Shown one piece after another: positions 4,003 to 61,514 of a stretch of 64,000 nucleotides of DNA. The notes beneath the pieces were generated by a model. It did not search any database. It had not been told where the DNA came from and saw only the letters and a list, made by a program, of their open reading frames with translations. The stretch is from an uncultured Roseovarius sp. (lineage in GTDB: Bacteria; Pseudomonadota; Alphaproteobacteria; Rhodobacterales; Rhodobacteraceae), in contig CANMOU010000006.1 in assembly GCA_947499555.1 (NCBI GenBank), forward strand, positions 1 to 64,000, in the 5' to 3' direction. Position 1 is the stretch's first letter; the number at the start of each line of letters is the position of its first letter. A program made the translations under genes and the position numbers.

Positions 4003-4893
4003 TTAGCGTAATGGCGTGGCTGTCACATGCATGTGACGCCCGTTTTGCTCGGTCCAATGGGTACGGCCCAGAACCCGACCATCCGCTCGAACATGCGCAA
4101 CTTTCTCCAGATCAACCTCGGCATAGGTCCATCCGGGCGCATTGAGCGTGCCCTCGGCCAGAACACCAGTGTCGGGGAAGCCTGCGTCGGGCGGGCCAAA
4201 AATGCCGCCCATCCCGGTCGTCAAATCCGCCACTTCGTTCCACGGGGCTTCTCCCACCAGCGAGGCCATGACCGACACACATTGTGTCTCCAAAGCACGA
4301 GCCATCGCCCCGATGCGGACCCGCCAGTAGCCAGACAGTGCTTCAGTGCAAGACGGTGCGAGGATGAAATCCGCATCGTAAAGCGCCCGCCCCAAAAGCG
4401 GAAATTCGCTGTCATAACAGATGAGTATGCCAATCTTGCCAAGCTCGGTATCGAAAAGCTGCAATGGGCCGCCCGGCGCGGCCCGCATCGGGTCTCGCTC
4501 CCAGCGGGTCATGATTTGCTTGTCCTGAATGCCAATCTGCCCGGTGGGCGTGATAAGCCGGGCCCGGTTGACCGGGCGATCCCCGATCTTTGGATCGTAA
4601 ACCGGCGCAGAACCTGCACAGATATGGACGTCGAACTTTGCAGCCAACTCCACATGTATCGCGTCGGCTTCAAGAACACGCTTCGAGACCGCATGAAGCG
4701 ACGCCTCCAGATCAGACGCCGCCTCGGGCCCGGCCAGCATCGCCAGTTCCATGCCCGCATATTCGGGAAATACCAAAAGGTTCGCGCCGTTGCGGGCCGC
4801 CTCAGACACCCAGTTTCCAATTTTTTCCGCATAGGCCTCCCACGTGGTCACGGCATCAAGCGGATATGCGGCAGTGGCGATTTTGACTGGCAT
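4003..4893 (-). CDS. Nitrilase-superfamily carbon-nitrogen hydrolase
   Basis: 296 residues with the Glu-Lys-Cys triad of the CN-hydrolase fold: E44 in VFPEYAGM, K125 in QDKQIMTRWE and C159 in ILICYDSEFP. Members hydrolyse amides, carbamoyl compounds or nitriles; the ICYDSEFP form and length fit an omega-amidase or aliphatic amidase branch rather than true nitrilases. The substrate is not predictable. The start codon overlaps the upstream glycosyltransferase stop by 1 nt (TGATG), implying translational coupling and perhaps action on a product of that enzyme. Confidence 0.85.
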   Translation of the reverse strand: MPVKIATAAYPLDAVTTWEAYAEKIGNWVSEAARNGANLLVFPEYAGMELAMLAGPEAASDLEASLHAVSKRVLEADAIHVELAAKFDVHICAGSAPVYDPKIGDRPVNRARLITPTGQIGIQDKQIMTRWERDPMRAAPGGPLQLFDTELGKIGILICYDSEFPLLGRALYDADFILAPSCTEALSGYWRVRIGAMARALETQCVSVMASLVGEAPWNEVADLTTGMGGIFGPPDAGFPDTGVLAEGTLNAPGWTYAEVDLEKVAHVRADGRVLGRTHWTEQNGRHMHVTATPLR

Positions 4894-6035
4894 CAGGTTT
4901 CTCTCAGCAGGATATCAAGGCTCTGAAAACATTCGCGTGTTTTGTGGGTATCCAGTAATCCCGCATGGGCCAAGGCTGCGGATTTCAGATCCGAAACTGA
5001 TGAGATATCAAAGCCATGGTCGCAAGGCGCATCAGGATCGGTCGGCATAACAAGCGTCGGCTCGACGCGTGCGCCGGCCTTTCGGAGTTCTGACTGCAAA
5101 CCATCTGCGAGCAGCTTGATAGCTGGCGCAGAGGAGGTCAGGATCTGCACATGTCTCTCGGGGCCAAAGGGCGCAAAACCTTCGAGTCTGTCGAGGGCGA
5201 GCACCCGAAGTGTCGGCCATTTCTCAAGACATCCACCCAAGGCATCCATGCAGGTGGCAGCATCTTCCACAAAAATCGTCACCACGCCCCCGGCCTTCGC
5301 GCGCCCGGCGCAAAGACCAAATGCACTTTGCAAGACTTCTTCGGCGCTCCGCGCAAGGACGACCAGTTCTTCGGTGATCCTCATTGACTGGCACTGCAGC
5401 AGAAAGCCCATGATCGTCTCGGCCATTTTGTTGTAATGACCGACATTGCGCATGTCATGCTCGATCCGCCCGATATCAACCTCAACAACCCTAGCACCAG
5501 CAGCGTAGATACGGACCATGATGTCCAGATCAGCTGCGTAGTCACCCACGATCTCCTGATGCGCAATCAAAGAGCGGTTCACGAGGTAGATGCCGGTGTT
5601 CGGTGACCGCAGAGTGCTTAAACCTTGAAAAAGCCATCTTAATCCGGGCTTTACCAGCAACCGCGTCATCGGCATATTATCTTTCGGATCGGTCCAGTCG
5701 CCCTTGACAAGGCCGACACCCTCTACCCTTGCCGCGGCCATTTCGGAAAATAGTTTAACGTTAAACTTTTCCAGGTCCGCATCAACTTTCATGACCCAGT
5801 CATGGGTCGCCGCTGCCAGTCCGGCGCGCACCGCGTGCCCCATGCCCGGCTGCGCTTCAAAAACACTCCGCGCACCGGCGGCTTCGGCCAGAGCCGCCGT
5901 TTCATCGTCGGAATTGTTGTCGACAACGACGACTTCGCTGACCCAGTCCATGGCCAGCAGGTTGCGAACAACCGAACCAATTGTCTCCGCCTCATTGCGG
6001 GCGGGCACGACAACGGAAAGAGGCAAGCGTGTCAC
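4893..6035 (-). CDS. Family 2 glycosyltransferase with extra C-terminal domain
   Basis: 380 residues starting at a GTG. The N-terminal GT-A fold shows VVVPARNEAETIG, VVVDNNSDDET and a D85-A-D87 metal motif in VMKVDADLEKF, so it is a nucleotide-sugar-dependent transferase. The pattern is closest to soluble GT2 enzymes of the glucosyl-3-phosphoglycerate synthase type, since no membrane segment is visible. Residues from about 230 to the end form a second region that I do not recognise (GGVVTIFVEDAATCMDALGG, then HVQILTSSAPAIKLLADG), possibly another alpha/beta domain. It is coupled to the amidase downstream. Acceptor and product are unknown. Confidence 0.75.
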   Translation of the reverse strand: MTRLPLSVVVPARNEAETIGSVVRNLLAMDWVSEVVVVDNNSDDETAALAEAAGARSVFEAQPGMGHAVRAGLAAATHDWVMKVDADLEKFNVKLFSEMAAARVEGVGLVKGDWTDPKDNMPMTRLLVKPGLRWLFQGLSTLRSPNTGIYLVNRSLIAHQEIVGDYAADLDIMVRIYAAGARVVEVDIGRIEHDMRNVGHYNKMAETIMGFLLQCQSMRITEELVVLARSAEEVLQSAFGLCAGRAKAGGVVTIFVEDAATCMDALGGCLEKWPTLRVLALDRLEGFAPFGPERHVQILTSSAPAIKLLADGLQSELRKAGARVEPTLVMPTDPDAPCDHGFDISSVSDLKSAALAHAGLLDTHKTRECFQSLDILLRET

Positions 6036-6103
6036 GGGATCAATGTCCTAAGAATTGTTACCCGATCCTTAGACCTGACCAGCCTGCGTCACAAGAGAGA
6101 TGC

Positions 6104-7021
6104 TCAAGCTGGCTCCACAGGGCGCTGCAAACGAAGCGGAATTTCCCGAGCCAGCCGAATAAGATGTGCCATAAACGGTTTGTCGGCGTCGTCCTCCCGG
6201 ACAGCCGCATAAAGACGCTTCGTGACCCCGCCAGGCGTCAAGGGCCGTGTGATATATTCGGTGCTGGTCCGCTGCTCGCGCAGGACCCAGTCGGGCAACA
6301 CCGCCACACCCCGATTTGACGCCACCAGAAGGAGGATGACGGCCGTCAGTTCAATCTGGCGAACGGCGCGCGGCTCAACCTTGGCAGGCGTCAACAGCTC
6401 CGTGAAGACATCCAGCCGAGACCGGTCCACCGGATAAGTGATCAGCGTTTCATCCCGGAAGTCCTCGGCCACCACGTGGTCATGCGCCGCCAGGGTGTGC
6501 TGACTGGACGCAACGAAAAGCGGCTCATAGTCAAAAAGAGGTTGAAAAACAATGCCTTCAAGCGTTTCAGGGTCAGAAGATACAACCAGATCCACTTCCT
6601 CTTTCTGCAAGGCGGGCAACGCATCAAAAGCCAAGCCGGGGCGGATATCAATATCGACATCGGCCCAGGTCTGCCGAAATCGTTCCAGCACAGGAAAAAG
6701 CCATTCAAAACAGGCGTGGCATTCAATCGCAATATGCAGCCGCCCTGCACTGCCCTGTCGCAAACCGGAAAACTCCGCCTCAAGCGCCTCGACCTCTGGC
6801 AGTACCTTCTCCGCCACCCGCAGCAGACGCATCCCCGCTGCGGACAGCTTGAGCGGCTTGGACCGTCGCACGAAGAGCTCGACACCCGCCTGATCCTCAA
6901 GCCCCTTGATCTGATGTGACAGCGCCGACTGAGTGATGTGCAAAAGATCAGCGGCCCTTGCAAGCCCGCCGGCCTGATGAATGGCCCGGATCGTGCGGAG
7001 GTGGCGAAAGTCGATATGCAT
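6104..7021 (-). CDS. metR: LysR-type regulator, MetR-like
   Basis: 305 residues. The N-terminal winged helix-turn-helix covers residues 1-60 (ARAADLLHITQSALSHQIKGLE), followed by a periplasmic-binding-like effector domain. The sequence pattern and the divergent position relative to metF fit MetR, the homocysteine-responsive activator of methionine genes. The 101-bp region between the two start codons contains TTCA-N5-TGAA, a LysR-type dyad, and is the expected control region for both genes. Identity as MetR rather than another LysR protein relies partly on context. Confidence 0.82.
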   Translation of the reverse strand: MHIDFRHLRTIRAIHQAGGLARAADLLHITQSALSHQIKGLEDQAGVELFVRRSKPLKLSAAGMRLLRVAEKVLPEVEALEAEFSGLRQGSAGRLHIAIECHACFEWLFPVLERFRQTWADVDIDIRPGLAFDALPALQKEEVDLVVSSDPETLEGIVFQPLFDYEPLFVASSQHTLAAHDHVVAEDFRDETLITYPVDRSRLDVFTELLTPAKVEPRAVRQIELTAVILLLVASNRGVAVLPDWVLREQRTSTEYITRPLTPGGVTKRLYAAVREDDADKPFMAHLIRLAREIPLRLQRPVEPA

Positions 7022-7040
7022 GGTTTATGAGCCGGCCTCA

Positions 7041-7053
7041 TTCAAACAATGAA
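7041..7053. promoter_or_regulatory. Candidate MetR operator between metR and metF
   Basis: TTCAAACAATGAA is a TTCA-N5-TGAA dyad in an A+T-rich patch of the divergent metR-metF promoter region. A further TGAA at 7057-7060 follows in direct repeat. E. coli MetR sites are written TGAA-N5-TTCA, the opposite arm order, so the match is to the half-site and not to the full consensus. Confidence 0.4.
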
Positions 7054-50342: not shown

Positions 50343-50473
50343 CAAAATGAGCCAGCTACTGGGGTAAGATAAAACGCAGCGTCAAACTTGCGCCATAGGT
50401 TAAACCTGAGCATGTTAGCGCGATGGAAGGCGTGCCGCGTCAGGAGCCGCAGCACCGATTGGGAGGACACAAT

Positions 50474-52357
50474 ATGACATTTGCCACGCGCCAGGATGTT
50501 TTGGACATTCAGAATGAAATGCCATGGGAAGAGCGCGACGTTCCCAAAACTGTCTACCAGATGCTGTCCGAGACAACTGCGTCCTTCTCCTCGCGCCCCG
50601 CGATCAGCTACCAGATCATGTCTGGTCCGACCGACAAGGCCGAAACGCTGAGCTGGCAACAGGTTCACGATCAGGTCACTCAAGCCGCCAACCTCTTTCG
50701 CAGCCTGAAAATCGGTGAAAAGGACGTCGTGGCGCTGGTCATGCCCAATACGCTTGAGACCGCGATTGCCACGATCGGAGCAATGGTTGCTGGCATCGCC
50801 AATCCAATCAACCCTTTGCTAGAGCCCGAACAAATTGGCGCCATCCTGCGCGAGACGAATGCAAAAGTGGTTGTGACCCTCCGCGCGTTCCCAAAAACAG
50901 ACATCGCCCAGAAAACGGCCGAAGCCGTGCGCCACGCGCCGAATGTGCATACCGTTCTCGAAGTGGACATGAACCGCTACCTGACACCCCCGAAAAGCTG
51001 GATCGTGCCACTTATCCGCCCCAAGAATCCGGCCAACCATCACGCGGATCTCAAGAACTTCAACGCCGAGATGGCCAAGCACCCCAAGACGCTCAGCTTT
51101 GAAGACAGCGCCGGAGATCGTGTTGCGGCCTACTTTCACACAGGCGGCACAACGGGCATGCCAAAAGTTGCCCAACACCGGTATTCGGGCATGGTCTATA
51201 ATGGCTGGCTGGGGCATCGGCTGCTCTTTACTGAGCAAGATAGTGTGATGTGCCCCCTGCCGCTCTTCCACGTGTTTGCTTGCCACGTGATCCTGATGGC
51301 GATGATCAAATCCGGCGCACATGTGGTTTTCCCCACCCCAGCGGGTTACCGTGGCGATGGCGTGTTCGACAATTTCTGGAAGCTTTGCGAACGCTGGAAA
51401 ACCACCTTTGTCATCACCGTGCCAACCGCTGTGGCCGCGCTCATGCAGCGCAAGGTGGACGCCGATGTCTCGACAGTCAAAAACGCGTTCTCTGGCTCTG
51501 CGCCAATGCCGATGGAGCTGTTCAAACGGTTTGAATCGGCCACCGGTATGGCCGTGATCGAAGGCTACGGGCTGACCGAGGCCACGTGCCTCGTGTCCTG
51601 CAACCCGCCCACCGGCGAAAAGAAAGTCGGCTCCGTCGGTGTGCCTTTCCCGCATACGGATGTGAAGATCATTACCGCGACAGATAATGGCCCGATGGAA
51701 TGCGAGCCGGACCAGGTGGGCGAGATCTGCATCTCGAACCCCGGTGTTTTCTCTGGCAACACCTACACCGAGGCGGCCAAGAACGCCGATCTTTATCACT
51801 ACAATGAATACCTGCGCACCGGTGACTTGGGCCGGATTGACCCGGACGGTTATCTCTGGATCACAGGCCGCGCCAAGGACCTCATCATTCGCGGCGGACA
51901 CAACATTGACCCCGCCGAGATCGAAGAGGCGCTCATGGCTCATAGTGCGGTGGCCATGGCAGGGGCCATCGGTCAGCCAGATGCCCATGCCGGTGAAATC
52001 CCTTGCGCCTATGTGGAGCTTGTCGAAGGCGGCGATGTAGATGGCGAAACTCTGCTGGAGCACTGCAAAAAGCATGTGCATGAACGCGCCGCTATTCCCA
52101 AGCATATCGAAGTGCTGCCCGAATTGCCCAAGACCGCCGTCGGCAAAGTCTTCAAACCTGATCTGCGCAAGCGTGCGATCACGCGGATTTACAACGCCGA
52201 GCTTGAAAAAGCAGGGATAGCCGCATCTGTCACCGAGGTCATCGACGACAAGAAGCGTGGCCTGATCGCGAAAGTCGCCAAATCCGGTGACGTGGATGAG
52301 GCGACCCTGTCACAGACACTCGGTCAGTTCACCCGGCCCTGGGAGTGGGCAGACTAG
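50474..52357 (+). CDS. Acyl-CoA synthetase (AMP-forming)
   Basis: 627 residues from the ATG at 50474, with GGGAGG 7 nt upstream. The adenylation signatures are AYFHTGGTTGMPKVAQ (P-loop), GYGLTEAT, YLRTGDLGRIDPDG and the C-terminal lysine motif LPKTAVGKVFK. It activates a carboxylic acid to its CoA thioester. The length and sequence resemble fatty or dicarboxylic acyl-CoA synthetases, but substrate size cannot be read from sequence here. The gene stands alone, 130 nt after the TetR gene, and its 3' end overlaps the convergent nitroreductase by 4 nt. Confidence 0.88.
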   Translation: MTFATRQDVLDIQNEMPWEERDVPKTVYQMLSETTASFSSRPAISYQIMSGPTDKAETLSWQQVHDQVTQAANLFRSLKIGEKDVVALVMPNTLETAIATIGAMVAGIANPINPLLEPEQIGAILRETNAKVVVTLRAFPKTDIAQKTAEAVRHAPNVHTVLEVDMNRYLTPPKSWIVPLIRPKNPANHHADLKNFNAEMAKHPKTLSFEDSAGDRVAAYFHTGGTTGMPKVAQHRYSGMVYNGWLGHRLLFTEQDSVMCPLPLFHVFACHVILMAMIKSGAHVVFPTPAGYRGDGVFDNFWKLCERWKTTFVITVPTAVAALMQRKVDADVSTVKNAFSGSAPMPMELFKRFESATGMAVIEGYGLTEATCLVSCNPPTGEKKVGSVGVPFPHTDVKIITATDNGPMECEPDQVGEICISNPGVFSGNTYTEAAKNADLYHYNEYLRTGDLGRIDPDGYLWITGRAKDLIIRGGHNIDPAEIEEALMAHSAVAMAGAIGQPDAHAGEIPCAYVELVEGGDVDGETLLEHCKKHVHERAAIPKHIEVLPELPKTAVGKVFKPDLRKRAITRIYNAELEKAGIAASVTEVIDDKKRGLIAKVAKSGDVDEATLSQTLGQFTRPWEWAD

Positions 52358-53034
52358 TCATCGCTCAAAAAACGCGCGAAGGCTTCGACGGGTTCCCGTT
52401 CGGTCCGGTAGTTGTTCACTGGGTGTTCGGTATCGGCGTAGCCAAATGATATCGCGCACAGGATCAAACGGTCCTCGCCAATCCCGAACTGCCGCCGGAT
52501 GACGGCCGGGTATCCGGCAACAGCCGCTTGCGCGATAGTGCCGAGGCCCTGCGCAGTTGCAGCCGACATAAAGGCGGTCAGAAACCCGCCCGCATCAAGC
52601 GCGCCATAGGCCCCAAGAATTTTGGGCGTATGCAAGATCGCCACATGCGGCGCATCGAAAAGTTCAAAATTACGCATGGATTGTCGCCCACGGGCCGCGC
52701 GGTCCTCTCGCGCGATCCCAACTGCATTGTAAAGCGCATAACCACAGGTGCGGCGCCGCTCCCCCAACTCATCGGGATAAGCCTCGGGCCAGTCAAGGTC
52801 CGGGCCGGGCTTGCCGCTTCGCACCTCTTCCAGGAGCGCTTTGCGAAACCGGTCCGTCTCGGCACCAGATGTCACGATCACCTGCCACGGCTGCACGTTG
52901 TTCCAGCTGGCGGTGTGTCGTGCCGTATCCAGTATGCTCTCGATCACGCCTTTCGGCACCGAATCGGGCTTGAACGCCCTGCAGGAATAACGCGCCTGCA
53001 TTACGCGGTGAAATGTGTCGGCATCTGACGTCAT
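52354..53034 (-). CDS. Nitroreductase family flavoprotein
   Basis: 226 residues from the ATG at 53034. The FMN-binding blocks are RYSCRAFKPDSVPK, TASWNNVQPWQVIV, AAVAGYPAVIRRQFGIGEDRLILCAISFGYAD and the C-terminal NNYRTERE. The family reduces nitroaromatics, quinones or flavin using NAD(P)H. It is the last gene of the TerC-to-zinc-ribbon series, 7 nt after the preceding stop, so it may be co-expressed with the stress module rather than being an independent gene. Confidence 0.88.
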   Translation of the reverse strand: MTSDADTFHRVMQARYSCRAFKPDSVPKGVIESILDTARHTASWNNVQPWQVIVTSGAETDRFRKALLEEVRSGKPGPDLDWPEAYPDELGERRRTCGYALYNAVGIAREDRAARGRQSMRNFELFDAPHVAILHTPKILGAYGALDAGGFLTAFMSAATAQGLGTIAQAAVAGYPAVIRRQFGIGEDRLILCAISFGYADTEHPVNNYRTEREPVEAFARFLSDD

Positions 53035-53041
53035 GTCACCC

Positions 53042-54145
53042 TCATTGGTTGATGGCCACCAAATAGCCAATTGCCGCCGCCGCAATTGCACCCAATACAA
53101 CCGCAATGGCAATCTTGATGGCGGAGTAAGGGCGCTCCCCCTGCACCTTGCCGTTGCGTCCGTTGACCACAAAGCGATAGGTCCTGCCGCGATATTTGTA
53201 GGCCGCCAGCCAGACCGGCAACAGCACATGTTTGAAGGTCACATCCTTGATGTCGGTGCTGATCGAGTGAATGCGTTGCCTGTCGCCGCCGATGTCAAAG
53301 CGGACATCGCGGGCAATGACATTGTCCATGATCTGACGCGCCTCGGAAAACCCGTCCCGCAACTCCACCTGATAGCCTTCGGCCCTGAACCCGGCGAGGT
53401 ACTCAGGCGAATAAGGACGCAAATCGCTTAGATCCCAAGGTTCGAGCCCATCTGTATATCGCTTCGGCAGGGTGCGCGACGCCAACACAAGAACATCGTC
53501 AAAGAACCGCGCCACGCGACCCGAAACAGGCCGCCAACGCACCTTCGCTACGCGGACATTCTGCCGTTTTCCATTGCGCGTGACGGTCTTGTTTTCGTAG
53601 TAAACCGTGCCCCGTTCGCCGCGATAGCTTGACTTGGTGTCGGCGTCATAGGTCCAATAGGGCACGTAGACGCCCTGCATCTTGCGACCCTTGCGGGCAT
53701 AGTCCTGCAGCCCGTTCGGCGCAAACCATAGACTGCCCAGCCAGTCCGACATCGCCCCCCGCGCGCTTGGCTCATCCACACGAAACGGCAAAAGGCCGCG
53801 CGGCTTGATGTGACGGTGAATGCCGGTATCGGTCACAACTGGCGTGGCACAAAACGGACACTCGGCGGCGTGCAATGTCTCATCAAACTCGACCTGTGCC
53901 GCACAGTTCAGACATTGTACGACGCGGGTTTCCTCAATCTCGGCCTCAGCCAATTGCCCGTCTAGCGCGGTCTGAAAATCGAGCTCGCGGATTGAGGTCG
54001 CCCACGGGCTGGATTGCGCGACATCCTGGGTATTGCCACAATGATCGCAGATCAGTTGTTCATCACGAGGCGCATACCGAAAATCCGCGCCGCAATTGTC
54101 GCAGGGGAAACGGTGTTCTTCGACAGGAGATCGGTCTTCCGGCAT
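53042..54145 (-). CDS. Double zinc-ribbon membrane protein (YdjG-like)
   Basis: 367 residues. Two N-terminal zinc ribbons are visible: C15-x2-C18 with C33-x2-C36, and C78-x2-C81 with C96-x2-C99. The centre has VPYWTYDADTKSSYRGERG and LLPVWLAAYKYRGRTYRFVVNGRNGKVQGERPYS, typical of the TFIIB-type zinc-ribbon family that includes YdjG-like and PrimN-like hypothetical proteins. One C-terminal transmembrane helix (KIAIAVVLGAIAAAAIGYLVAI) anchors it with the ribbons probably in the cytosol. In Bacillus, YdjG and YdjH anchor PspA at stressed membranes. It lies 47 nt downstream of the SPFH-GYF gene and 7 nt before the nitroreductase. Confidence 0.82.
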   Translation of the reverse strand: MPEDRSPVEEHRFPCDNCGADFRYAPRDEQLICDHCGNTQDVAQSSPWATSIRELDFQTALDGQLAEAEIEETRVVQCLNCAAQVEFDETLHAAECPFCATPVVTDTGIHRHIKPRGLLPFRVDEPSARGAMSDWLGSLWFAPNGLQDYARKGRKMQGVYVPYWTYDADTKSSYRGERGTVYYENKTVTRNGKRQNVRVAKVRWRPVSGRVARFFDDVLVLASRTLPKRYTDGLEPWDLSDLRPYSPEYLAGFRAEGYQVELRDGFSEARQIMDNVIARDVRFDIGGDRQRIHSISTDIKDVTFKHVLLPVWLAAYKYRGRTYRFVVNGRNGKVQGERPYSAIKIAIAVVLGAIAAAAIGYLVAINQ

Positions 54146-54192
54146 CTGATTGGGTCAACCTGAGCAAAAGGCTTTTTCTGGTTGAAAGTGCT

Positions 54193-55272
54193 TTATCCCT
54201 GAGGTGGCGGCGGCGGCAAAACGGTAAAGAGCTGTGCCAATTCCTGCACCTCATCGGCTGGCAACCACCCATCCTGTCCGGCGGTCCAGACATAAGTTTG
54301 ACGCGTCAGCTTGCCCTCGCCTGCCATTCGGCCCAGATCCGCCCGGGAATAGGGCCCATGCGTCTTGCCGTTTTCCGCAATGTGCCAGACATGTTCGACC
54401 GGAGGAGGCGGCGGCGCTGCCTGCCCGCCCATCTGCGTGGCCATTGCCATACCCATGCCCATTCCAAGACCTGCACCCATGCCTCCACCCCCATCAGGGT
54501 TCCGCGCCGCAGCCGTCATCGCCTCGGCTGTGGAATAGTCGCGGAAACGTCTCAGATCACCCGCAACACCCATCGAGGTACGCTTATCGAGCGCCTCTTC
54601 CACGGCAGGCGGCAACGAGATGTTCTCGATATAAAATTCGGGAATATTCAGGCCATACTCCGCGACCACCTCGGAAATCTCTTCCGCCACCAGCTTGCCC
54701 AACTCGGCGGTGTTCGCCGCCATGTCCAGAACCGGAATGCCAGAGGCCGCAATGATACGCGAAAAGGCCTGCACGATAATGTTTCGGATCTGGTAGCTGA
54801 TCTCATCCATGGTGAATTCACCATCTGTCCCCACAATCTCGACCAGAAATTTCGCCGGGTCCACGACACGCACCGAATAAGTTCCGAAAGCGCGCAACCG
54901 TGTCGGGCCAAACTCTGGGTCACGCAGCATGATCGGATTCTTCGTGCCCCATTTCAGGTCATTGAAGCGGGTCGTGCTGACAAAATAGACCTCTGATTTA
55001 AAGGGGCTTTTGAACCCATGATCCCAGTGATTGATCGTGGTCAGGATCGGCATGTTGTTGGTTTCAAGCATGTAAAGGCCGGGCGTGAACACATCCGCGA
55101 GCTGACCTTCATGGACGAAAACCGCTGATTGCCCCTCGCGCACGGTGAGCTTGGCACCATATTTGATCTCGTGCCCTTCACGCTCAAACCGCCAGACCAT
55201 GGTGTCGCGCGTATCATCCGTCCAGTGGATGACGTCGATGAATTCACCCGTAAGAAAATCGAGAATACCCAT
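54193..55272 (-). CDS. SPFH-domain protein with C-terminal GYF_2 domain (YdjI-like)
   Basis: 359 residues. Residues about 30-230 form an SPFH/band-7 type domain in the virion-core-like branch (EGQSAVFVHEGQLADVFTPGLYML, GTYSVRVVDPAKFL, YGLNIPEFYIENISLPP). A Gly/Met-rich linker (261-283) leads to a GYF_2 domain at about 295-346 (HVWHIAENGKTHGPYSRADL..GWLPADEV). No clear transmembrane helix is seen, so membrane contact is probably peripheral. It matches YdjI of the Bacillus ydjFGHI envelope-stress operon in domain type. It is between the DUF2927 lipoprotein and the zinc-ribbon protein, each within 50 nt. Confidence 0.85.
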   Translation of the reverse strand: MGILDFLTGEFIDVIHWTDDTRDTMVWRFEREGHEIKYGAKLTVREGQSAVFVHEGQLADVFTPGLYMLETNNMPILTTINHWDHGFKSPFKSEVYFVSTTRFNDLKWGTKNPIMLRDPEFGPTRLRAFGTYSVRVVDPAKFLVEIVGTDGEFTMDEISYQIRNIIVQAFSRIIAASGIPVLDMAANTAELGKLVAEEISEVVAEYGLNIPEFYIENISLPPAVEEALDKRTSMGVAGDLRRFRDYSTAEAMTAAARNPDGGGGMGAGLGMGMGMAMATQMGGQAAPPPPPVEHVWHIAENGKTHGPYSRADLGRMAGEGKLTRQTYVWTAGQDGWLPADEVQELAQLFTVLPPPPPQG

Positions 55273-55293
55273 ATGTTTGGTCTCCTTTGACTG

Positions 55294-56247
55294 TCAGCTG
55301 GGACCGCTGCGATTGGCAAATATCCGTGAAAATATCGGCCGTGCCTCTTCGAGAGACATGCCCGTTTTCAGACTTGGGTTATAGAGGGTCCGCAACAACT
55401 CTTCGTCATGCGTCGTCAGCAGCGCGAATTCCTCATCGTCGTTGAAAATCGAAGGCCGCGCGCGGGGGCTGTCATTGGCCAAGCCCAGACCCTGTGCCAG
55501 TTCCTCGTGAATACAGGCCAGCCGCTGCAACGCGGTGTTCTCTGATCGGATGTAAGAAAGAGCCGCCTGGTACTCGTAGTTATCCTCCAGCCCCGCCGCG
55601 ATCACAAAGCAACGAATTGCACGCGGCAATCGCCTGTAAAAGCCCGGGCTGCCACGCTGAAAGCTGGGAAGTATCTCTTTCGTGCGCGCGCTCGCCTCTT
55701 CTGCGTCGTCGGCACTCATGATCATGACGATGAAATTGGCATCGCTGTTGTTCACCGAAATCGGATGACCGGTGACACGAGACAGCCGGGCTGCATAGGA
55801 CTTTATGCTGGTCAAATCCCGCGTCTGAATGTCTTTGGGCACCCGAGCCCCAAACTCCACGCCAATTCGCACCGGCACGCGCCACTTGCGCAATCGTCCT
55901 GGCACGTCATCCGCTGGGCTAAGACCACCGTTGTTCTGATACTCGTTGTAGAAGGCGATCCGCTCAAAATTTCGCCTGAGATCTGTATCACTAAAGGGCG
56001 TATCGACCCCCCCACCGCCAGTGCGCATCAGGTCTTGCGCCTGCAGGTCGTTCTGCAGCCTTGCGTAGTAAAGCGTCAGCGCCTCGCTTGTCGCCGACGG
56101 TTGCACATCGTCTGCATCAGCCAGATCTGCCGGACGGGCCTGGGGTTTCGTGGATGGATCCAAGGCCGTAGAGGCCAGGCAACCGGCGACAAGACCGGTT
56201 GCAGCAAGACCTAACATTATGCGCCAGACACGATGAACCCTGAGCAA
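55294..56247 (-). CDS. DUF2927 family lipoprotein
   Basis: 317 residues from a TTG at 56247 that gives a basic n-region (LRVHRVWR) before the hydrophobic core; an ATG at 56217 would lose it. The lipobox is VAGC with C23. The DUF2927 domain covers about residues 85-300. A motif CIHEELAQGLGLANDS (about 245-260) lines up with the matrixin zinc motif HELGHALGLGHS, position by position, but with the three metal His replaced by E248, Q252 and N258 while the catalytic Glu (E249) remains. This suggests a metalloprotease fold that may have lost classical zinc binding. It is 18 nt from telA upstream. Confidence 0.75.
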   Translation of the reverse strand: MLRVHRVWRIMLGLAATGLVAGCLASTALDPSTKPQARPADLADADDVQPSATSEALTLYYARLQNDLQAQDLMRTGGGGVDTPFSDTDLRRNFERIAFYNEYQNNGGLSPADDVPGRLRKWRVPVRIGVEFGARVPKDIQTRDLTSIKSYAARLSRVTGHPISVNNSDANFIVMIMSADDAEEASARTKEILPSFQRGSPGFYRRLPRAIRCFVIAAGLEDNYEYQAALSYIRSENTALQRLACIHEELAQGLGLANDSPRARPSIFNDDEEFALLTTHDEELLRTLYNPSLKTGMSLEEARPIFSRIFANRSGPS

Positions 56248-56265
56248 TGTGAGCGGCCTCGTCCC

Positions 56266-57462
56266 TTAGCTCGGCACCGCGGTGCCAGCGTTGTCACCAA
56301 CGCCGTCACGACGAGATGTGGCCGCGGCGAGCGTATCACGAAGCTCGGCCTCCATCTTCTTGAGCTCTTCTTCCGCAGCAGCGCGGCGGGCTTTGCCTTC
56401 GTCGGCAATCTGCAAGCTTTCTTCGATCGTGCCAATCAGATCAGCATTGGCTTGTTTGACCGCTTCGATATCGAAGACACCACGCTCCATTTCCTCGCGG
56501 ATCATCTTGTTCGCATCTCGCAGATTCTCGGCATTGGCCGTGAGCAATTCGTTGGTCAGATCGTTGGCATCGCGCACCGCGGCAGCCGCTTCTGCCGAGC
56601 GTTGGATCGTAACGGCTTGCGCCAATTGAGTTTCCCAGAGCGGCACGGTGTTGACCAGCGTCGAATTGATCTTGGTCACCAGTGATTTGTCATTCTCCTG
56701 TACCAGACGGATCGAGGGCAATGACTGCATCGTCACTTGACGTGTGAGTTTCAGGTCATGAACCCGCCGCTCAAGATCGTCCCTGGCGGCCCGCAGATCG
56801 CGCAATTCCTGCGCCTGCATCACCTGCTGGTCTTCCGGTGCGGCCTCGACCTCGGCTTCTTTGGCCGGAATTGCCTTTTCATCCAGCTCTTTCAGCTTGG
56901 CCTCGCCAGCGGCAATGTAAAGCGCCAGTTCGTCGTAGAACTGCAGCGTTTTCTCATAGAGCAGGTCGAGTGACTTGATGTCTTTCAACAGCGTATGCTC
57001 ATGCTGCAAAAGATCGTCGGTAATCTTGTCAATCTGCCCTTGAACCGTCTCGAAGCGGGCGGTGAATTTGGCAAAAGGCGCCGCGCGACCCAAGAGCTTC
57101 TCCCACCAGGTACGTTCTCTGCGAACGTCAAGTTCGGACACCGAAAAGCCTCGGATGGTCGTCACAATGTTGCGCAGTGAGCTGCCCGCAGGACCAACAT
57201 CCTTGTTGCGCACACCTTGCAGCATGGATTGAGATATCTCTTGTAGTTCCGACTGCGCGGCGGATCCGAAGGAAACGATTGAGTTGGTATCACCCATATC
57301 AATCTCGTCCATGCGCTTGCGAATTTCGGCTTCCTCGGCGGGCTCTGCCTTCGCAAGCGGAACAATGGCCCCGGCCTCTTTCGGCTCGGGCAGAATGACC
57401 CGGCTGATCTCTTCCACTTCGGCCAATGCGGCCTCTGCTTTTTTGCGAATGTCCTCTGACAT
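56266..57462 (-). CDS. telA: TelA-family toxic anion resistance protein
   Basis: 398 residues, all-helical and coiled-coil, matching the TelA/KlaA family over its whole length (RRERTWWEKLLGR, FETVQGQIDKITDDLLQHEHTLLKDIKSLDLLYEKTLQFYDEL, LPSIRLVQENDKSLVTKINSTLVNTVPLWETQLAQA). Family members are linked to tellurite resistance, lantibiotic and antibiotic tolerance and membrane stress, with no known enzyme activity. A strong GGAGGGGG site precedes the ATG. It is 15 nt after xpaC, the usual partner of telA in firmicutes and proteobacteria. Confidence 0.93.
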   Translation of the reverse strand: MSEDIRKKAEAALAEVEEISRVILPEPKEAGAIVPLAKAEPAEEAEIRKRMDEIDMGDTNSIVSFGSAAQSELQEISQSMLQGVRNKDVGPAGSSLRNIVTTIRGFSVSELDVRRERTWWEKLLGRAAPFAKFTARFETVQGQIDKITDDLLQHEHTLLKDIKSLDLLYEKTLQFYDELALYIAAGEAKLKELDEKAIPAKEAEVEAAPEDQQVMQAQELRDLRAARDDLERRVHDLKLTRQVTMQSLPSIRLVQENDKSLVTKINSTLVNTVPLWETQLAQAVTIQRSAEAAAAVRDANDLTNELLTANAENLRDANKMIREEMERGVFDIEAVKQANADLIGTIEESLQIADEGKARRAAAEEELKKMEAELRDTLAAATSRRDGVGDNAGTAVPS

Positions 57463-57477
57463 AAATCCCCCTCCGGG

Positions 57478-58374
57478 CTATTGCGTGTCTTCCAGTCGAA
57501 TGCCTTCTTGCGCCAAACGGTCCCGCAAGACGCCAATTTCGACCTCCAGATCACTGTTATTGTCGGACAAGAGCTTTCGCGTCTTGGCCGTGAAATTCTC
57601 TTCCAGGTCCGTCAGCAGCATCATATAGTCAGAGCGCGCTTTCGCATCCCGCGACCGACTATAGATGTCCGCGAACTTCGCCGTCGCGTCCCGAGCGCCC
57701 ATCAGGTAGACGCCCAAATATTTGCGCGTCGCGGTCAAATCGCGCGGATCATCCTCAACGGTTCGAAGCATGTCACGGACGCTGGTCTGAAACCGCTCCA
57801 GTCGCGCTTCGGCCTGCCGGTCTCCGGCACGTTTCATCGCATCGGACATTGCCGACAGATAATTCTCAGCCTTGTCCACCACGCGCGCAACACGATCAGT
57901 CTGCATCTTGTCAATGCCTTCCATGCCCTTGTCACGCATCGGATCGGGTCCAAAAGCCATGAAATGCAGCGCTGCCCCGAGAACGGCATAGATAACCGGC
58001 ACGGCAAAACCACCTGTTGATGCAAACCCAGCGACCGCAAGACCAAGCCCGGTGAAGACCGAACCCGCCATTTTGCGTGGAAACCCCGGCGCGCGGGCGA
58101 TTTTCCGAGACTCGTAGGATTCCTGGGCGACAATTCCCTCTCGCGTCAGCCACGCCGCAAGAAGCAGAGCACCAAGTGCGATGAGATAGAGTGCCAACCC
58201 GGTGGGGCCTGATGTGAAAGCCGACCAGATCAGCGGCAGCGGAGCGAGAAACAACAGGTTTACACGTCCACCCGCCTGCGTCCTGCGCGCACCTTGATAA
58301 GCCCCGCGCTCAGGCGCTCCTGTTGACGGCGACTGGCCATCCGGGCTGTATTTTCCGCCATAACGCTGCGCCAT
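57478..58374 (-). CDS. xpaC: XpaC-family membrane protein
   Basis: 298 residues from the ATG at 58374, overlapping the stop of the 27-aa ORF by one base (TGATG). A polar N terminus is followed by about four hydrophobic helices (VNLLFLAPLPLIWSAFTSG, GLALYLIALGALLLAAWL, VFTGLGLAVAGFAS, VPVIYAVLGAALHFMAFG), then a long helical cytosolic domain (KAENYLSAMSDAMKRAG ... LTDLEENFTAKTRKLLSDNN). This matches XpaC, historically named for 5-bromo-4-chloroindolyl phosphate hydrolysis, although no active site is known. XpaC and TelA are conserved neighbours and probably act together at the membrane. Confidence 0.88.
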   Translation of the reverse strand: MAQRYGGKYSPDGQSPSTGAPERGAYQGARRTQAGGRVNLLFLAPLPLIWSAFTSGPTGLALYLIALGALLLAAWLTREGIVAQESYESRKIARAPGFPRKMAGSVFTGLGLAVAGFASTGGFAVPVIYAVLGAALHFMAFGPDPMRDKGMEGIDKMQTDRVARVVDKAENYLSAMSDAMKRAGDRQAEARLERFQTSVRDMLRTVEDDPRDLTATRKYLGVYLMGARDATAKFADIYSRSRDAKARSDYMMLLTDLEENFTAKTRKLLSDNNSDLEVEIGVLRDRLAQEGIRLEDTQ

Positions 58375-58457
58375 CACACGCCCCCTGTGAAAGAGACGTA
58401 AAGGATCAGTATGACAAGCAGAACAAATGCCAGTCTTTGCAGGCCACTTCCCGTCAT
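58374..58457 (-). CDS. 27-residue single-span membrane peptide
   Basis: A small ORF on the minus strand runs from the ATG at 58457 to the TGA at 58374. The message has GAGGGG 5 nt before the start, a strong site. The peptide starts MTGSGLQRL and continues with a hydrophobic span AFVLLVILILYVSFTGG. Its stop shares a base with the xpaC start (TGATG), so xpaC initiation is probably coupled to it. It is absent from standard length cut-offs. It could be a small subunit of the XpaC/TelA complex or simply a translational coupler. Confidence 0.65.
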   Translation of the reverse strand: MTGSGLQRLAFVLLVILILYVSFTGGV

Positions 58458-58575
58458 AATCCCCTCTGATTGGCGTTCACCTCAAACAACTTAGGTCATG
58501 GACCTATCCCTTGCTAGGGGGAAGTTTCCACAGCCCGACGCAGCAGCATATCTGCGCCGTGTTTTGCGCCACTGC

Positions 58576-59394
58576 TTACAGCTTTGAATGGGTCCGACGT
58601 TCGGCATTCAGCTTCCGTGTATAGCCGGACTGAATGATTTCGACCGCGACAAGAACCAGAACGGAGAAGTAGAACGTGGTCTTGGACATCGGGATCACCT
58701 CGTAGCCGAACACCTTCAGCGCGAGACTGTCATCATGCATCGCATGCGCCGCCGCCTGCCCGGCCTCGCCCAGAAGAACGACACCCACGATAAGCAGGAT
58801 AAAGAGACCCAGAACTTCGTACATCCGGTTCTTCTCGAGAAACCGCGTCACGCCATCGGCCAGAACCAACATGGCAATTCCCGACAGAATGATGGCTGTC
58901 GCCAAAATCGGGAAGACATCCGTGATCGCCAATGCTGAGAGAACCGAGTCAAAGGAAAAAATGAGGTTCATCAACACGATAAGCATGACAACCTTGACCG
59001 CTGACTTTCCTGACTTGCCCTCAACATCGGTGTCCAGATGCTCGATGGTGAGCATATGGCTGATCTCTTTGACAGCCGTATAGATGATGAAGATGCCACC
59101 CAAGATAAAGACGCAGGTGGCGAAATTCACTCCACCCTCCAGAAAACCGGGTGAGTTGAAAATGTAGAATGGCTCAGCCATCGCATCGATGAGCTGGATC
59201 ATGGTGAAAAGAAGAATAACCCTGAGCGCCACCGCGATGATGATGCCCCAGAACCGAACCGCTTTTTGATGCGCGACCGGCGCACGTTGTGATTCAATCG
59301 AGATGTAGAGCAGGTTGTCGAAGCCTAGAACAGCCTGCAGAAAGCACAGCATCAGCAGGTTACCTAGATTTTCGATTGTTAACAGTTCAGCCAT
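58576..59394 (-). CDS. terC: TerC-family integral membrane protein
   Basis: 272 residues from the ATG at 59394, preceded by GAGGGG. About seven hydrophobic helices are present. The two characteristic acidic membrane motifs are GFDNLLYISI (near residue 24) and FSFDSVLSALAITD (near 148), as in TerC/Alx. TerC-family proteins export metal ions such as Mn(II) or load secreted metalloproteins, and belong to tellurite and stress modules. It is the first gene of the leftward series, about 120 nt before the small peptide, and is divergent from the histidine kinase. Confidence 0.9.
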   Translation of the reverse strand: MAELLTIENLGNLLMLCFLQAVLGFDNLLYISIESQRAPVAHQKAVRFWGIIIAVALRVILLFTMIQLIDAMAEPFYIFNSPGFLEGGVNFATCVFILGGIFIIYTAVKEISHMLTIEHLDTDVEGKSGKSAVKVVMLIVLMNLIFSFDSVLSALAITDVFPILATAIILSGIAMLVLADGVTRFLEKNRMYEVLGLFILLIVGVVLLGEAGQAAAHAMHDDSLALKVFGYEVIPMSKTTFYFSVLVLVAVEIIQSGYTRKLNAERRTHSKL

Positions 59395-59543
59395 GTCAGT
59401 GCCCCTCAAAGAATATCGCTTTTTCGCGTCATAGCGCACAGGCCGCCAGAAACAAAACTCAAAGATAGCGACCAGAGACCGCAATAATGGACCAAGGCAC
59501 GGGAATGGCTTAATGTTTCAGGCAGGGAGAAGGAAAATCTGAC

Positions 59544-61514
59544 ATGACGTCGGTTCGCCTGAGATTGCTCATCCTGGCATTGCTGCCACTGGTGGTTCTT
59601 ATGCCGCTCTTGTTGTGGCTTGCGGTAAGCCGCTGGGCTGCGAACTACGACAATCTTCTCATCGCCAACGTCGAAAGCGACTTGCGCATCGCCGAGCAAT
59701 ATCTGGCGCAAATCATGATCACCACCGGCGACGGGGTGGAAGCCCTTGCCACATCCGCAGCCTTTCGCGATGCAGCGAACCTGTCTCGCGGCCAGCTTGA
59801 TGATTTTCTAGAACGAAAGCGCGAAGAACTTGCTCTGGATTTCCTATATTACCTCCCGCGCGGAGCAGCGCAGCAAGCCGGGTCGAAATGGCCTGTCATA
59901 GAAAGTGCAATTCACGGACGAGGCGGCACTGAAATCGATATTTTTTCCGGCTTGGATCTGACGGCGATTGACGAAGATCTGGCTCTTCGCGCCCGGCTAT
60001 CGCTGATTGAAACGGAGGCTGCAGTTCCGACCGACAGAGTGGTCGAGGATCGCGGGATGGTCGTTCACACAGCAACCGGCGTCTCTGTGCCGGGACGGAT
60101 CGGCGTTCTGGTTGGCGGCATTCTTCTGAACCGCAATCTGGACTTTATCGATACGATCAACGCCCTCGTCTATCATTCCGAAGGCACAGAGAACGGAGAA
60201 CGACAAGGCACCGCAACGCTCTTTCTTGAAGATGTTCGGGTGTCCACGAATGTTCGGCTTTTTGAGGGTGCGCGCGCATTAGGCACCCGCGTGTCTGCCG
60301 TTGTCAGGAATGCGGTCCTTGATGAAGGGCAAACCTGGCTCAATCGCGCATTTGTCGTAAATGACTGGTATATCTCTGGATACCTGCCCTTGATTGACAG
60401 CCGCGACCAAAGGGTCGGCATGCTTTATGTCGGCTATCTTGAAGCGCCTTTCATCACGGCCAAGCGCGGGGCCTACATCCTTATATTCTCGGCTTTTGCC
60501 GCCGTGCTTGCTTTGACCATTCCTCTGTTCCTGCGCCTTGCCGGGGGAATTTTCTCGCCTCTTGAACGGATGACGCTGACCATGAAGCGCGTGGAAGGCG
60601 GGCAACTGGATGCCCGCATCGGCGAGGTGGCGGCGAAAGATGAAATCGGAGAGGTCGCGGCTCACCTCGATGAGCTTCTCGATCAAGTGCAGGAACGCGA
60701 CCGTGCGCTGCGGTCCTGGGCCGACGAATTGAACGAGCGCGTCGAAGACCGCACGAAAGAACTTCGGGAGACCAACGAAAAACTCGAGGCCACCTATCAG
60801 CAACTGGTCATGAGCGAGAAGCTGGCCTCAATCGGCGAGATCACAGCGGGCGTCGCACATGAGATCAATAACCCTGTGGCCGTCATTCAGGGCAATGTCG
60901 ATGTCATTCGCGAAACCTTGGCCGAAGCAGCCGATCCGGTGGCAACCGAGCTGGCCCTGATCGACAAGCAGATTTCACGCATCAACGCCATCGTCAGCAA
61001 ACTGCTGCAGTTTGCCCGGCCAAGCGACTACGGCGTTTTCGCCGAGCAGATTGACGTTGGTACGGTCCTTGATGATTGCCTGGTGCTTGTCGACTATGTG
61101 ATCAGTAAAGGCGATATCGAGGTCGAAATCGAAAGATCTGACGCACCTCCGGTCAGCATGAACACCGGCGAACTGCAGCAAGTGATCATCAATCTGATCG
61201 TCAATGCAGTGCAGGCCATGGACAACAACGGAAAGCTGAAACTGTCTGTCGGAAAATCGATGCGCGATGGCCGCATCGGCACAACACTTGTCGTGGCGGA
61301 TACTGGTCCGGGCGTCGATGCAGAGCGGCTGAACACCGTTTTCGATCCCTTTTATACGACCAAACTTGGGGAGGGCACCGGTCTTGGCCTTTCGGTCAGC
61401 CAGACCTTGATACGGCAGGCCAATGGGCTGATCACTGTTCGCAATCAAGACGATGGCGGCGCGGAATTCTCGGTCTGGCTTCCCGAGGCTCAGGACGATC
61501 AGGAAGCCGCCTGA
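59544..61514 (+). CDS. Sensor histidine kinase with periplasmic Cache-like domain
   Basis: 656 residues. TM1 is near residues 8-28 (LLILALLPLVVLMPLLLWLAV), a periplasmic sensing region of about 280 residues with a Cache-like pattern follows, and TM2 is near 312-332 (AYILIFSAFAAVLALTIPLFL). Then come a HAMP linker, a coiled coil (ELRETNEKLEATYQQLVMSEKLA), the phosphoacceptor H-box AGVAHEINNPVAVIQGN, the N-box LIVNAVQAM and the G-boxes DTGPGVD and GTGLGLSV. It is of the NtrB/DctB-like HisKA type. The convergent gene 1 nt away is the obvious response regulator partner. It is divergent from terC, sharing a 149-bp promoter region. Confidence 0.92.
   Translation: MTSVRLRLLILALLPLVVLMPLLLWLAVSRWAANYDNLLIANVESDLRIAEQYLAQIMITTGDGVEALATSAAFRDAANLSRGQLDDFLERKREELALDFLYYLPRGAAQQAGSKWPVIESAIHGRGGTEIDIFSGLDLTAIDEDLALRARLSLIETEAAVPTDRVVEDRGMVVHTATGVSVPGRIGVLVGGILLNRNLDFIDTINALVYHSEGTENGERQGTATLFLEDVRVSTNVRLFEGARALGTRVSAVVRNAVLDEGQTWLNRAFVVNDWYISGYLPLIDSRDQRVGMLYVGYLEAPFITAKRGAYILIFSAFAAVLALTIPLFLRLAGGIFSPLERMTLTMKRVEGGQLDARIGEVAAKDEIGEVAAHLDELLDQVQERDRALRSWADELNERVEDRTKELRETNEKLEATYQQLVMSEKLASIGEITAGVAHEINNPVAVIQGNVDVIRETLAEAADPVATELALIDKQISRINAIVSKLLQFARPSDYGVFAEQIDVGTVLDDCLVLVDYVISKGDIEVEIERSDAPPVSMNTGELQQVIINLIVNAVQAMDNNGKLKLSVGKSMRDGRIGTTLVVADTGPGVDAERLNTVFDPFYTTKLGEGTGLGLSVSQTLIRQANGLITVRNQDDGGAEFSVWLPEAQDDQEAA

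Follow-up and report, generated by a model that had tools for sequence, protein, structure and literature searches.

A conserved XpaC-TelA-DUF2927-SPFH-zinc-ribbon gene block of Rhodobacterales, a candidate inner-membrane envelope-protection scaffold

We analysed a leftward gene block in a 64,000-nucleotide (nt) stretch of DNA (the window) from an uncultured Roseovarius sp. (GCA_947499555.1, contig CANMOU010000006.1, positions 1 to 64,000). The core of the block, micropeptide-xpaC-telA-DUF2927-spfh-znr (znr encoding a double zinc-ribbon protein, ZnR), sometimes followed by a nitroreductase gene, is a Rhodobacterales operon that we propose to encode an inner-membrane scaffold protecting the cell envelope, with a probability of about 0.55. 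The component families are already known. In this block two poorly understood envelope-protection gene sets are joined, and the join is kept by nearly every examined member of Rhodobacterales; the order is large and easily grown, so a joint function could be tested by simple deletions.

Conservation of the core gene order

Two sets of TelA loci were scored: 41 loci from Rhodobacterales (order set; 39 scorable, 2 too close to a contig end) and 80 named loci (named set; 70 scorable, 10 too close to a contig end). The sets overlap partly and hence are not independent (one contig probably underlies both L067 and L172). Genes for XpaC, TelA, DUF2927, SPFH and ZnR proteins followed each other in this order at 35 of 39 order-set loci and 67 of 70 named-set loci, i.e. 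at 102 of the 109 scorable loci when the partly overlapping sets are pooled. The core gene order in Rhodobacterales is more than chance. Among the exceptions, two loci had no ZnR gene nearby (L033, L179), three had neither SPFH nor ZnR nearby and kept XpaC-TelA-DUF2927 (L046, L064, L168), and one was reduced to XpaC-TelA (L039); the last, L146, had all five genes with SPFH counted twice.

A TerC gene was present at 11 of 39 order-set and 9 of 70 named-set loci, a nitroreductase gene at 8 of 39 and 41 of 70, and the two together at only 2 of 39 and 3 of 70. Both genes are optional, and the conserved unit is smaller than the eight genes proposed in the original prediction, which had been made from the letters of the window. 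The central part of that prediction, XpaC/TelA and SPFH/zinc-ribbon genes in one co-directional block that has no PspA or TerD gene, was borne out at almost every Rhodobacterales locus examined, and the order that it expected to be conserved in relatives is indeed present for the core.

TelA was matched in 194 of 196 Rhodobacterales genomes, nearly always as a single copy (one of the 194, G085, had a weak match only), and in just 10 of 114 genomes drawn across the class, including the window's own genome and one of the same family. The top named matches of the window TelA came from Roseovarius and other Rhodobacterales. None of the three genomes without TelA (G011, G106) or with the weak TelA (G085) had a Band_7_1 (SPFH) match over the cut-off. 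In the class, strong Band_7_1 matches were found in six genomes; by coordinates five of the six were beside TelA, and the sixth (G205) was ∼130 kb away. XpaC-TelA-SPFH-ZnR blocks without DUF2927 were detected in three other alphaproteobacterial families, and the other four scorable class loci had TelA by itself or with an XpaC gene further along.

At two loci (L077, L078) a different TelA-XpaC arrangement was seen, with TelA followed by a ∼520-amino-acid (aa) binding-protein/vWA-like protein, a short XpaC and another binding-protein-like gene (functions assigned by eye). A variable set of small proteins (∼120–200 aa, some of them membrane proteins) is often encoded between SPFH and ZnR (L041:5363-5821 and similar places); one such protein was scanned and had no Pfam match. 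A contig titled Enemella evansiae (Actinomycetota; L127) bears the Rhodobacterales operon with a TelA 84% identical to that of the window, and is probably a mislabelled or contaminated assembly.

A coupled micropeptide upstream of XpaC

The first gene of the core encodes a 27-aa peptide and is preceded by AGAGGGG, which by eye resembles a ribosome-binding site. By a motif-and-position test, such a micropeptide adjoins 109 of 135 Rhodobacterales XpaC genes; these belong to 105 of 122 loci, the window among them, and the offsets range from −4 to +7 nt. The search went through three stages: a permissive scan for hydrophobicity (112 of 140 XpaC genes, counting those of class relatives), a strict pattern (46 genes) and the wider pattern that gave the 109 of 135. 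Some of the missed loci, such as L033, L035 and L040, carry divergent hydrophobic open reading frames (ORFs) in that position. The usual sequence is MS(D/E/G)TGLQKLAF..LLV.LI.YVS..GG; in some genomes a form of 62–77 aa carries the same peptide as its C-terminus. Three class relatives with the four-gene block had no such micropeptide.

The ratio of non-synonymous to synonymous polymorphism (pN/pS) was 0.33 for the window type (bootstrap 0.21–0.47; 36 distinct sequences) and 0.40 for the other main type (0.30–0.51; 63 sequences), while shifted frames gave 0.84 to 2.25; as the sequences are related, resampling codons falls short of a full test of significance. Since the rows were picked by motif, which favours conservation, the calculation was repeated without the picked codons and gave 0.45 (0.31–0.60) for the window type and 0.44 (0.32–0.56) for the other. 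The five codons after ATG had a pN/pS of 0.26 (0.10–0.42). Judged by these ratios, the 27-aa ORF is a genuine gene and evolves under purifying selection.

Tandem XpaC genes were found at 12 of the 70 scorable named loci. In 14 tandem pairs compared, the copies were 22–32% identical to each other; the first copy was preceded by a 65–66 aa relative of the micropeptide in 10 of the 14 and by an 86-aa frame in one. Loci with tandem copies were L058, L116, L118, L123, L127, L132, L133, L142, L144, L154, L156, L157, L173 and L185.

DUF2927, a lipoprotein with a predicted metzincin fold

The DUF2927 protein is predicted to have a metzincin (matrix-metalloprotease) fold. Its AlphaFold2 (AF2) model had a mean predicted local distance difference test score (pLDDT) of 86.2 and a predicted template modelling score of 0.81, and all 50 Foldseek matches listed were metzincins (probability 0.75–1.00, E-values from 1.2e-3 to 5.3e-2, none ≤1e-3). 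These listed matches were catalytic domains of matrix metalloproteases, including a Streptomyces zinc protease and karilysin, with target template modelling scores mostly of 0.56–0.67. A search of the DUF2927 profile against PDB sequences returned no matrixin, only two unrelated matches at E 2.2.

In an alignment of 63 DUF2927 proteins, E248, E249, Q252, G255 and D259 were invariant, and position 258 was N in 61 sequences and D in two. All 63 have EExxQxxG, followed by an invariant RPSIFNDD; none has the zinc site HExxHxxGxxH. Among genomes of the class, DUF2927 was found in 16 of 114. Of 18 class proteins matching the profile, 11 have EExxQxxG, one QExxQ and three HExxH, and three had no motif under the pattern used. 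One of the HExxH proteins (L206) retains the full HExxHxxGxxH and gave a weak Peptidase_M10 match (E 0.082, below cut-off); the two others (L208, L211) retain HExxHxxG, with the next His one residue later. In the profile alignment the residues of all three at E248, E249 and Q252 are H, E and H, respectively; L206 further has H opposite N258, and L208 and L211 have it opposite D259.

The fold prediction, together with distant members whose HExxHxxG aligns over EExxQxxG, suggests that the family is most likely metzincin-derived; the operon members have lost the zinc-binding His residues and kept the catalytic Glu. The protein would then be inactive as an enzyme; another metal site is possible. 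A lipobox-like site was present in 60 of 70. The window genome has a second DUF2927 gene (G000:C1:627787-628386, L212), in a longer frame (477 aa) with the same EExxQ motif.

SPFH and ZnR genes as an older module

Band_7_1 was matched at E ≤ 1e-20 in 32 of 249 genomes of the phylum. Among 16 SPFH loci from outside the order, at least seven have a zinc-ribbon gene scoring >300 bits, a lower bound because the gene caller missed SPFH in several. In a plasmid collection, relatives of ZnR were found in 12 records, and the SPFH gene adjoins ZnR in the five records examined (Paracoccus, Vibrio, Comamonas, Tsukamurella and Enterococcus). The ZnR relative of Enterococcus gallinarum (27% identity, E 3e-27 to the window protein) lies in a gene order SPFH-ZnR-TPM; judged by this gene context and the domains we take the Bacillus proteins to have, the order resembles ydjI, ydjG and ydjH. 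A C-terminal transmembrane (TM) segment was predicted in 53 of 53 ZnR proteins. The SPFH-ZnR pair is an older module.

On a Vibrio coralliilyticus plasmid (L192:980-1849 and 4888-7041) the SPFH-ZnR pair is ∼3 kb away from genes with TIR-domain and TRAFs-binding annotations, which may mark an island for defence or stress.

Layout of the window locus and a promoter-like element

The features of the locus are given in Table 1. All eight leftward ORFs of the original prediction are present at the positions given there and their families were correct by Pfam; the ZnR protein of the window has no Pfam match above the cut-off. The spacing had been described as mostly 0–50 nt, which holds from the micropeptide through the nitroreductase gene (an overlap of 1 nt, then gaps of 15, 18, 21, 47 and 7 nt) and fails for TerC, 118 nt away from the micropeptide. 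The 15-nt gap is that between xpaC and the directly following telA, an adjacency conserved in relatives. The nitroreductase gene is tail-to-tail with a plus-strand acyl-CoA-synthetase-like gene (50423-52357, named by eye), with a 4-nt overlap at 52354-52357.

Table 1. Features of the locus in window coordinates
Feature	Coordinates	Strand	Description
TerC family membrane protein	58576..59394	-	PF03741, 130.9 bits; optional neighbour, upstream of the promoter-like element
Promoter-like element TTCCCCCTAG-N19-CTAAGTT	58488..58523	-	exact match; 30 nt before micropeptide start
27-aa single-TM micropeptide	58374..58457	-	stop overlaps XpaC start
XpaC family membrane protein	57478..58374	-	PF10112, 88.1 bits; ATG at 58374
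TelA	56266..57462	-	PF05816, 363.6 bits; predicted all-helical
DUF2927 lipoprotein	55294..56247	-	PF11150, 188.6 bits; TTG start; lipobox LVAGC; predicted metzincin fold, EExxQxxGxxND replacing the zinc site
SPFH protein	54193..55272	-	Band_7_1 PF13421, 339.7 bits; C-terminal GYF_2 PF14237, 72.8 bits
Double zinc-ribbon (ZnR) protein	53042..54145	-	four CxxC; C-terminal TM segment; relatives adjoin SPFH
Nitroreductase family protein	52354..53034	-	PF00881, 91.6 bits; optional last gene, 7 nt after ZnR

An element of the pattern TTCCCCCTAG-N19-CTARNTT, with fixed spacing and a −10-like TARRTT, was matched with up to two mismatches upstream of XpaC at 64 of 120 loci, and the 4,226,887 background bases of these loci contained no match. 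The element looks like a promoter. In the window genome it is the only match at ≤2 mismatches; at ≤3 mismatches the pattern gave 4 matches versus 8 for a control, so that only the exact match stands out. Of 61 order genomes, 16 contain the element once each at ≤1 mismatch (a reversed control pattern gave 4 matches). When these 16 were compared by hand with TelA positions, the element lay on the TelA strand, ∼1.2 kb upstream of the gene, in 11, elsewhere in three (G030, G045, G049) and unplaced in two (G038, G044; TelA positions not listed).

The element was missing at ≤2 mismatches from 56 of the 120 loci: from 15 of 20 with a 55–80 aa form of the peptide, from 26 of 85 with the short form only, and from loci with no peptide call. 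Seven class relatives were checked and had no match at ≤3 mismatches, and a sigma-70 scan gave 2 sites (mean 3.6 in shuffles), none of them at the element.

In the window the element separates TerC from the rest of the block. Of 25 TerC loci, 10 have the element, in all 10 downstream of TerC. Separate promoters had been named as evidence against a shared unit; the conserved promoter-like element between TerC and the micropeptide, recognized by sequence only, counts against membership of TerC.

PspA, TerD and TPM had no Pfam match among the operon proteins, and TerD had none at E ≤ 0.001 in the whole window genome. The claim that the block contains neither PspA nor TerD thus stands for the operon; TerD is missing genome-wide, and a PspA homologue is encoded on another contig (C2:315002-315673, 76.3 bits). 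PspA homologues of Rhodobacterales located away from the operon were also seen at L085 and L087-L090; that of L089 lies between a TetR-like gene and a gene for a 92-aa two-TM YiaAB-like protein (by eye). A defence system was considered and set aside: PADLOC run on seven proteins gave one weak match (TelA to PbeC, E 0.0039, 13.7 bits) and nothing else.

Proposed function and alternatives

In the scaffold that we propose, XpaC with the 27-aa TM micropeptide, and ZnR via its C-terminal TM segment, would serve as membrane anchors. TelA and the SPFH-GYF2 protein would be cytosolic, assembly-prone parts docked on these anchors, in an arrangement much like that of YdjI and PspA on YdjG and YdjH in Bacillus. 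The lipidated DUF2927 protein, in the periplasm, would most likely bind rather than cut a peptide or an envelope component and may act as a sensor or adaptor. We infer the complex, the roles of its members and its benefit to the cell, while the DUF2927 fold is a model-based prediction. The proposal follows from the anchor, cytosolic and lipoprotein make-up of the block, from findings on YdjG, YdjH and YdjI, and from links of Firmicutes TelA and XpaC to agents acting on the cell envelope. It is also supported by the recurrent core order, by the near-universal TelA of the order, by the lack of Band_7_1 in the three genomes with little or no TelA, by the position of Band_7_1 beside TelA in five of six class genomes and by the XpaC-TelA-SPFH-ZnR blocks of three further families. 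According to PMC8581546, recruitment of YdjI and PspA to the membrane in B. subtilis requires YdjG and YdjH, and fluidity falls when YdjI is lost. Firmicutes relatives of TelA and XpaC are tied to cell-envelope agents in four papers (PMC12791056, PMC3139573, PMC10269926, PMC7864038): a Listeria strain mutated in the TelA homologue lmo1967 showed 4-fold higher sensitivity to nisin and 2-fold higher sensitivity to tellurite (work cited in PMC12791056), the Lactococcus xpaC and telA genes fall within a CesSR-related transcript response (PMC3139573), and xpaC rose ∼7-fold in an Enterococcus liaR mutant (PMC10269926).

Several observations weigh against the scaffold proposal. We only infer that the block is a stress system, because its near-universality in the order fits housekeeping as well; for Rhodobacterales, no phenotype or expression data on the block were found in the open-licence literature. 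The link between TelA and SPFH is not obligatory: none of the 16 SPFH loci from outside the order has TelA or XpaC, and in three genomes with TelA (G110, G124, G189) SPFH is not beside it but elsewhere in the genome. The window genome has its own PspA homologue, and PspA_IM30 was matched in 39 of 101 order genomes, including the window's, so that TelA is no simple replacement for a missing PspA. The all-helical TelA model (AF2, from 56 rows 79–88% identical to the window TelA) is of low confidence (mean pLDDT 65.7). TelA as a look-alike of PspA/ESCRT-III was also rejected: the Foldseek matches were AhlC, ClyA, BAR-type and coiled-coil chains, none better than E 0.07, with no PspA among the 50 listed. 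The TelA profile against PDB sequences reached at best E 0.02, with cytochrome b562 helices, taken as chance. A more detailed version of the proposal is best put as tentative; in it TelA would replace PspA on the SPFH/zinc-ribbon platform, the 27-residue peptide would be a membrane subunit of XpaC, the dead metzincin lipoprotein a periplasmic sensor and the promoter element a once-per-genome switch-on site, making the core an undescribed envelope-maintenance machine.

Near-universal, mostly single-copy TelA (194 of 196 order genomes) would also be expected of a housekeeping membrane organizer that shapes membrane domains, or places membrane or cell-wall enzymes, in all growth conditions, with stress protection as a side effect. 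Many loci are indeed neighboured by genes that by eye are housekeeping ones (pseudouridine synthase, TadA-like, Dtd-like), and loss of YdjG or YdjH in Bacillus misplaces cell-wall synthesis under alkaline shock (PMC8581546). However, the Firmicutes relatives of XpaC and TelA are stress-induced or alter drug sensitivity, and three order genomes have no TelA or nearly none. Sequence by itself does not distinguish such an organizer from an envelope-protection scaffold; we regard the organizer as rather unlikely. A metal or oxyanion resistance unit, with Mn export by TerC, tellurite tolerance by TelA and redox help from the nitroreductase, is suggested by the family names, by the TerC and nitroreductase neighbours and by the 2-fold tellurite effect quoted above for Listeria. 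It is improbable, given that TerC and nitroreductase are optional, that TerC is upstream of the element at all 10 TerC loci having one, that the window genome has no TerD, and that positions 52000-60000 contain no Rfam match at E ≤ 1, with no yybP-ykoY riboswitch upstream of TerC. We find it slightly more improbable still that XpaC-TelA-DUF2927 and SPFH-ZnR are functionally separate modules merely sharing one transcript. SPFH-ZnR does occur alone outside the class, XpaC-TelA alone in Firmicutes, and three Rhodobacterales loci (L046, L064, L168) keep XpaC-TelA-DUF2927 without the pair, but the two stay joined at 102 of 109 scorable loci, as they do in three other families, and genomes without TelA are also without Band_7_1.

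Comparison with known systems

In the open-licence literature we found no paper uniting TelA, XpaC and TerC, none uniting toxic anion resistance protein TelA, SPFH and operon, nothing on DUF2927 and, among the matches listed, no ‘toxic anion resistance’ for TelA in Rhodobacterales. The micropeptide, the metzincin assignment of DUF2927 and the promoter-like element were found neither there nor in Pfam or NCBIfam. The analysis thus offers a first clue to the structure of DUF2927, a conserved micropeptide for which Pfam and NCBIfam have no model, and a dedicated promoter-like element as a handle for seeking its regulator.

With Ter (TerD-type) systems, to which we presume the TelA and TerC families to be linked, the window locus shares these two families, encoded side by side; unlike them, its genome has no TerD at all, and TerC is optional and outside the core. 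The DUF2927 protein resembles metzincins (matrixins) in predicted fold and motif spacing and differs from them in having Glu, Gln and Asn at the zinc-binding His positions, with the catalytic Glu kept. As probably in B. subtilis pspA-ydjGHI, an SPFH protein (B. subtilis has a match to PF13421) is encoded beside a zinc-ribbon protein with a TM segment. Unlike the Bacillus operon, that of the window has no PspA or TPM protein (YdjH) and instead has XpaC-TelA, the DUF2927 lipoprotein and the micropeptide. The xpaC-telA operons of Firmicutes (Listeria lmo1966-1967, Lactococcus llmg_1115-1116) likewise have XpaC adjoining TelA, and published links to envelope stress; in the window, by contrast, the pair is joined to SPFH-ZnR and DUF2927, is preceded by the coupled micropeptide and has its own promoter-like element.

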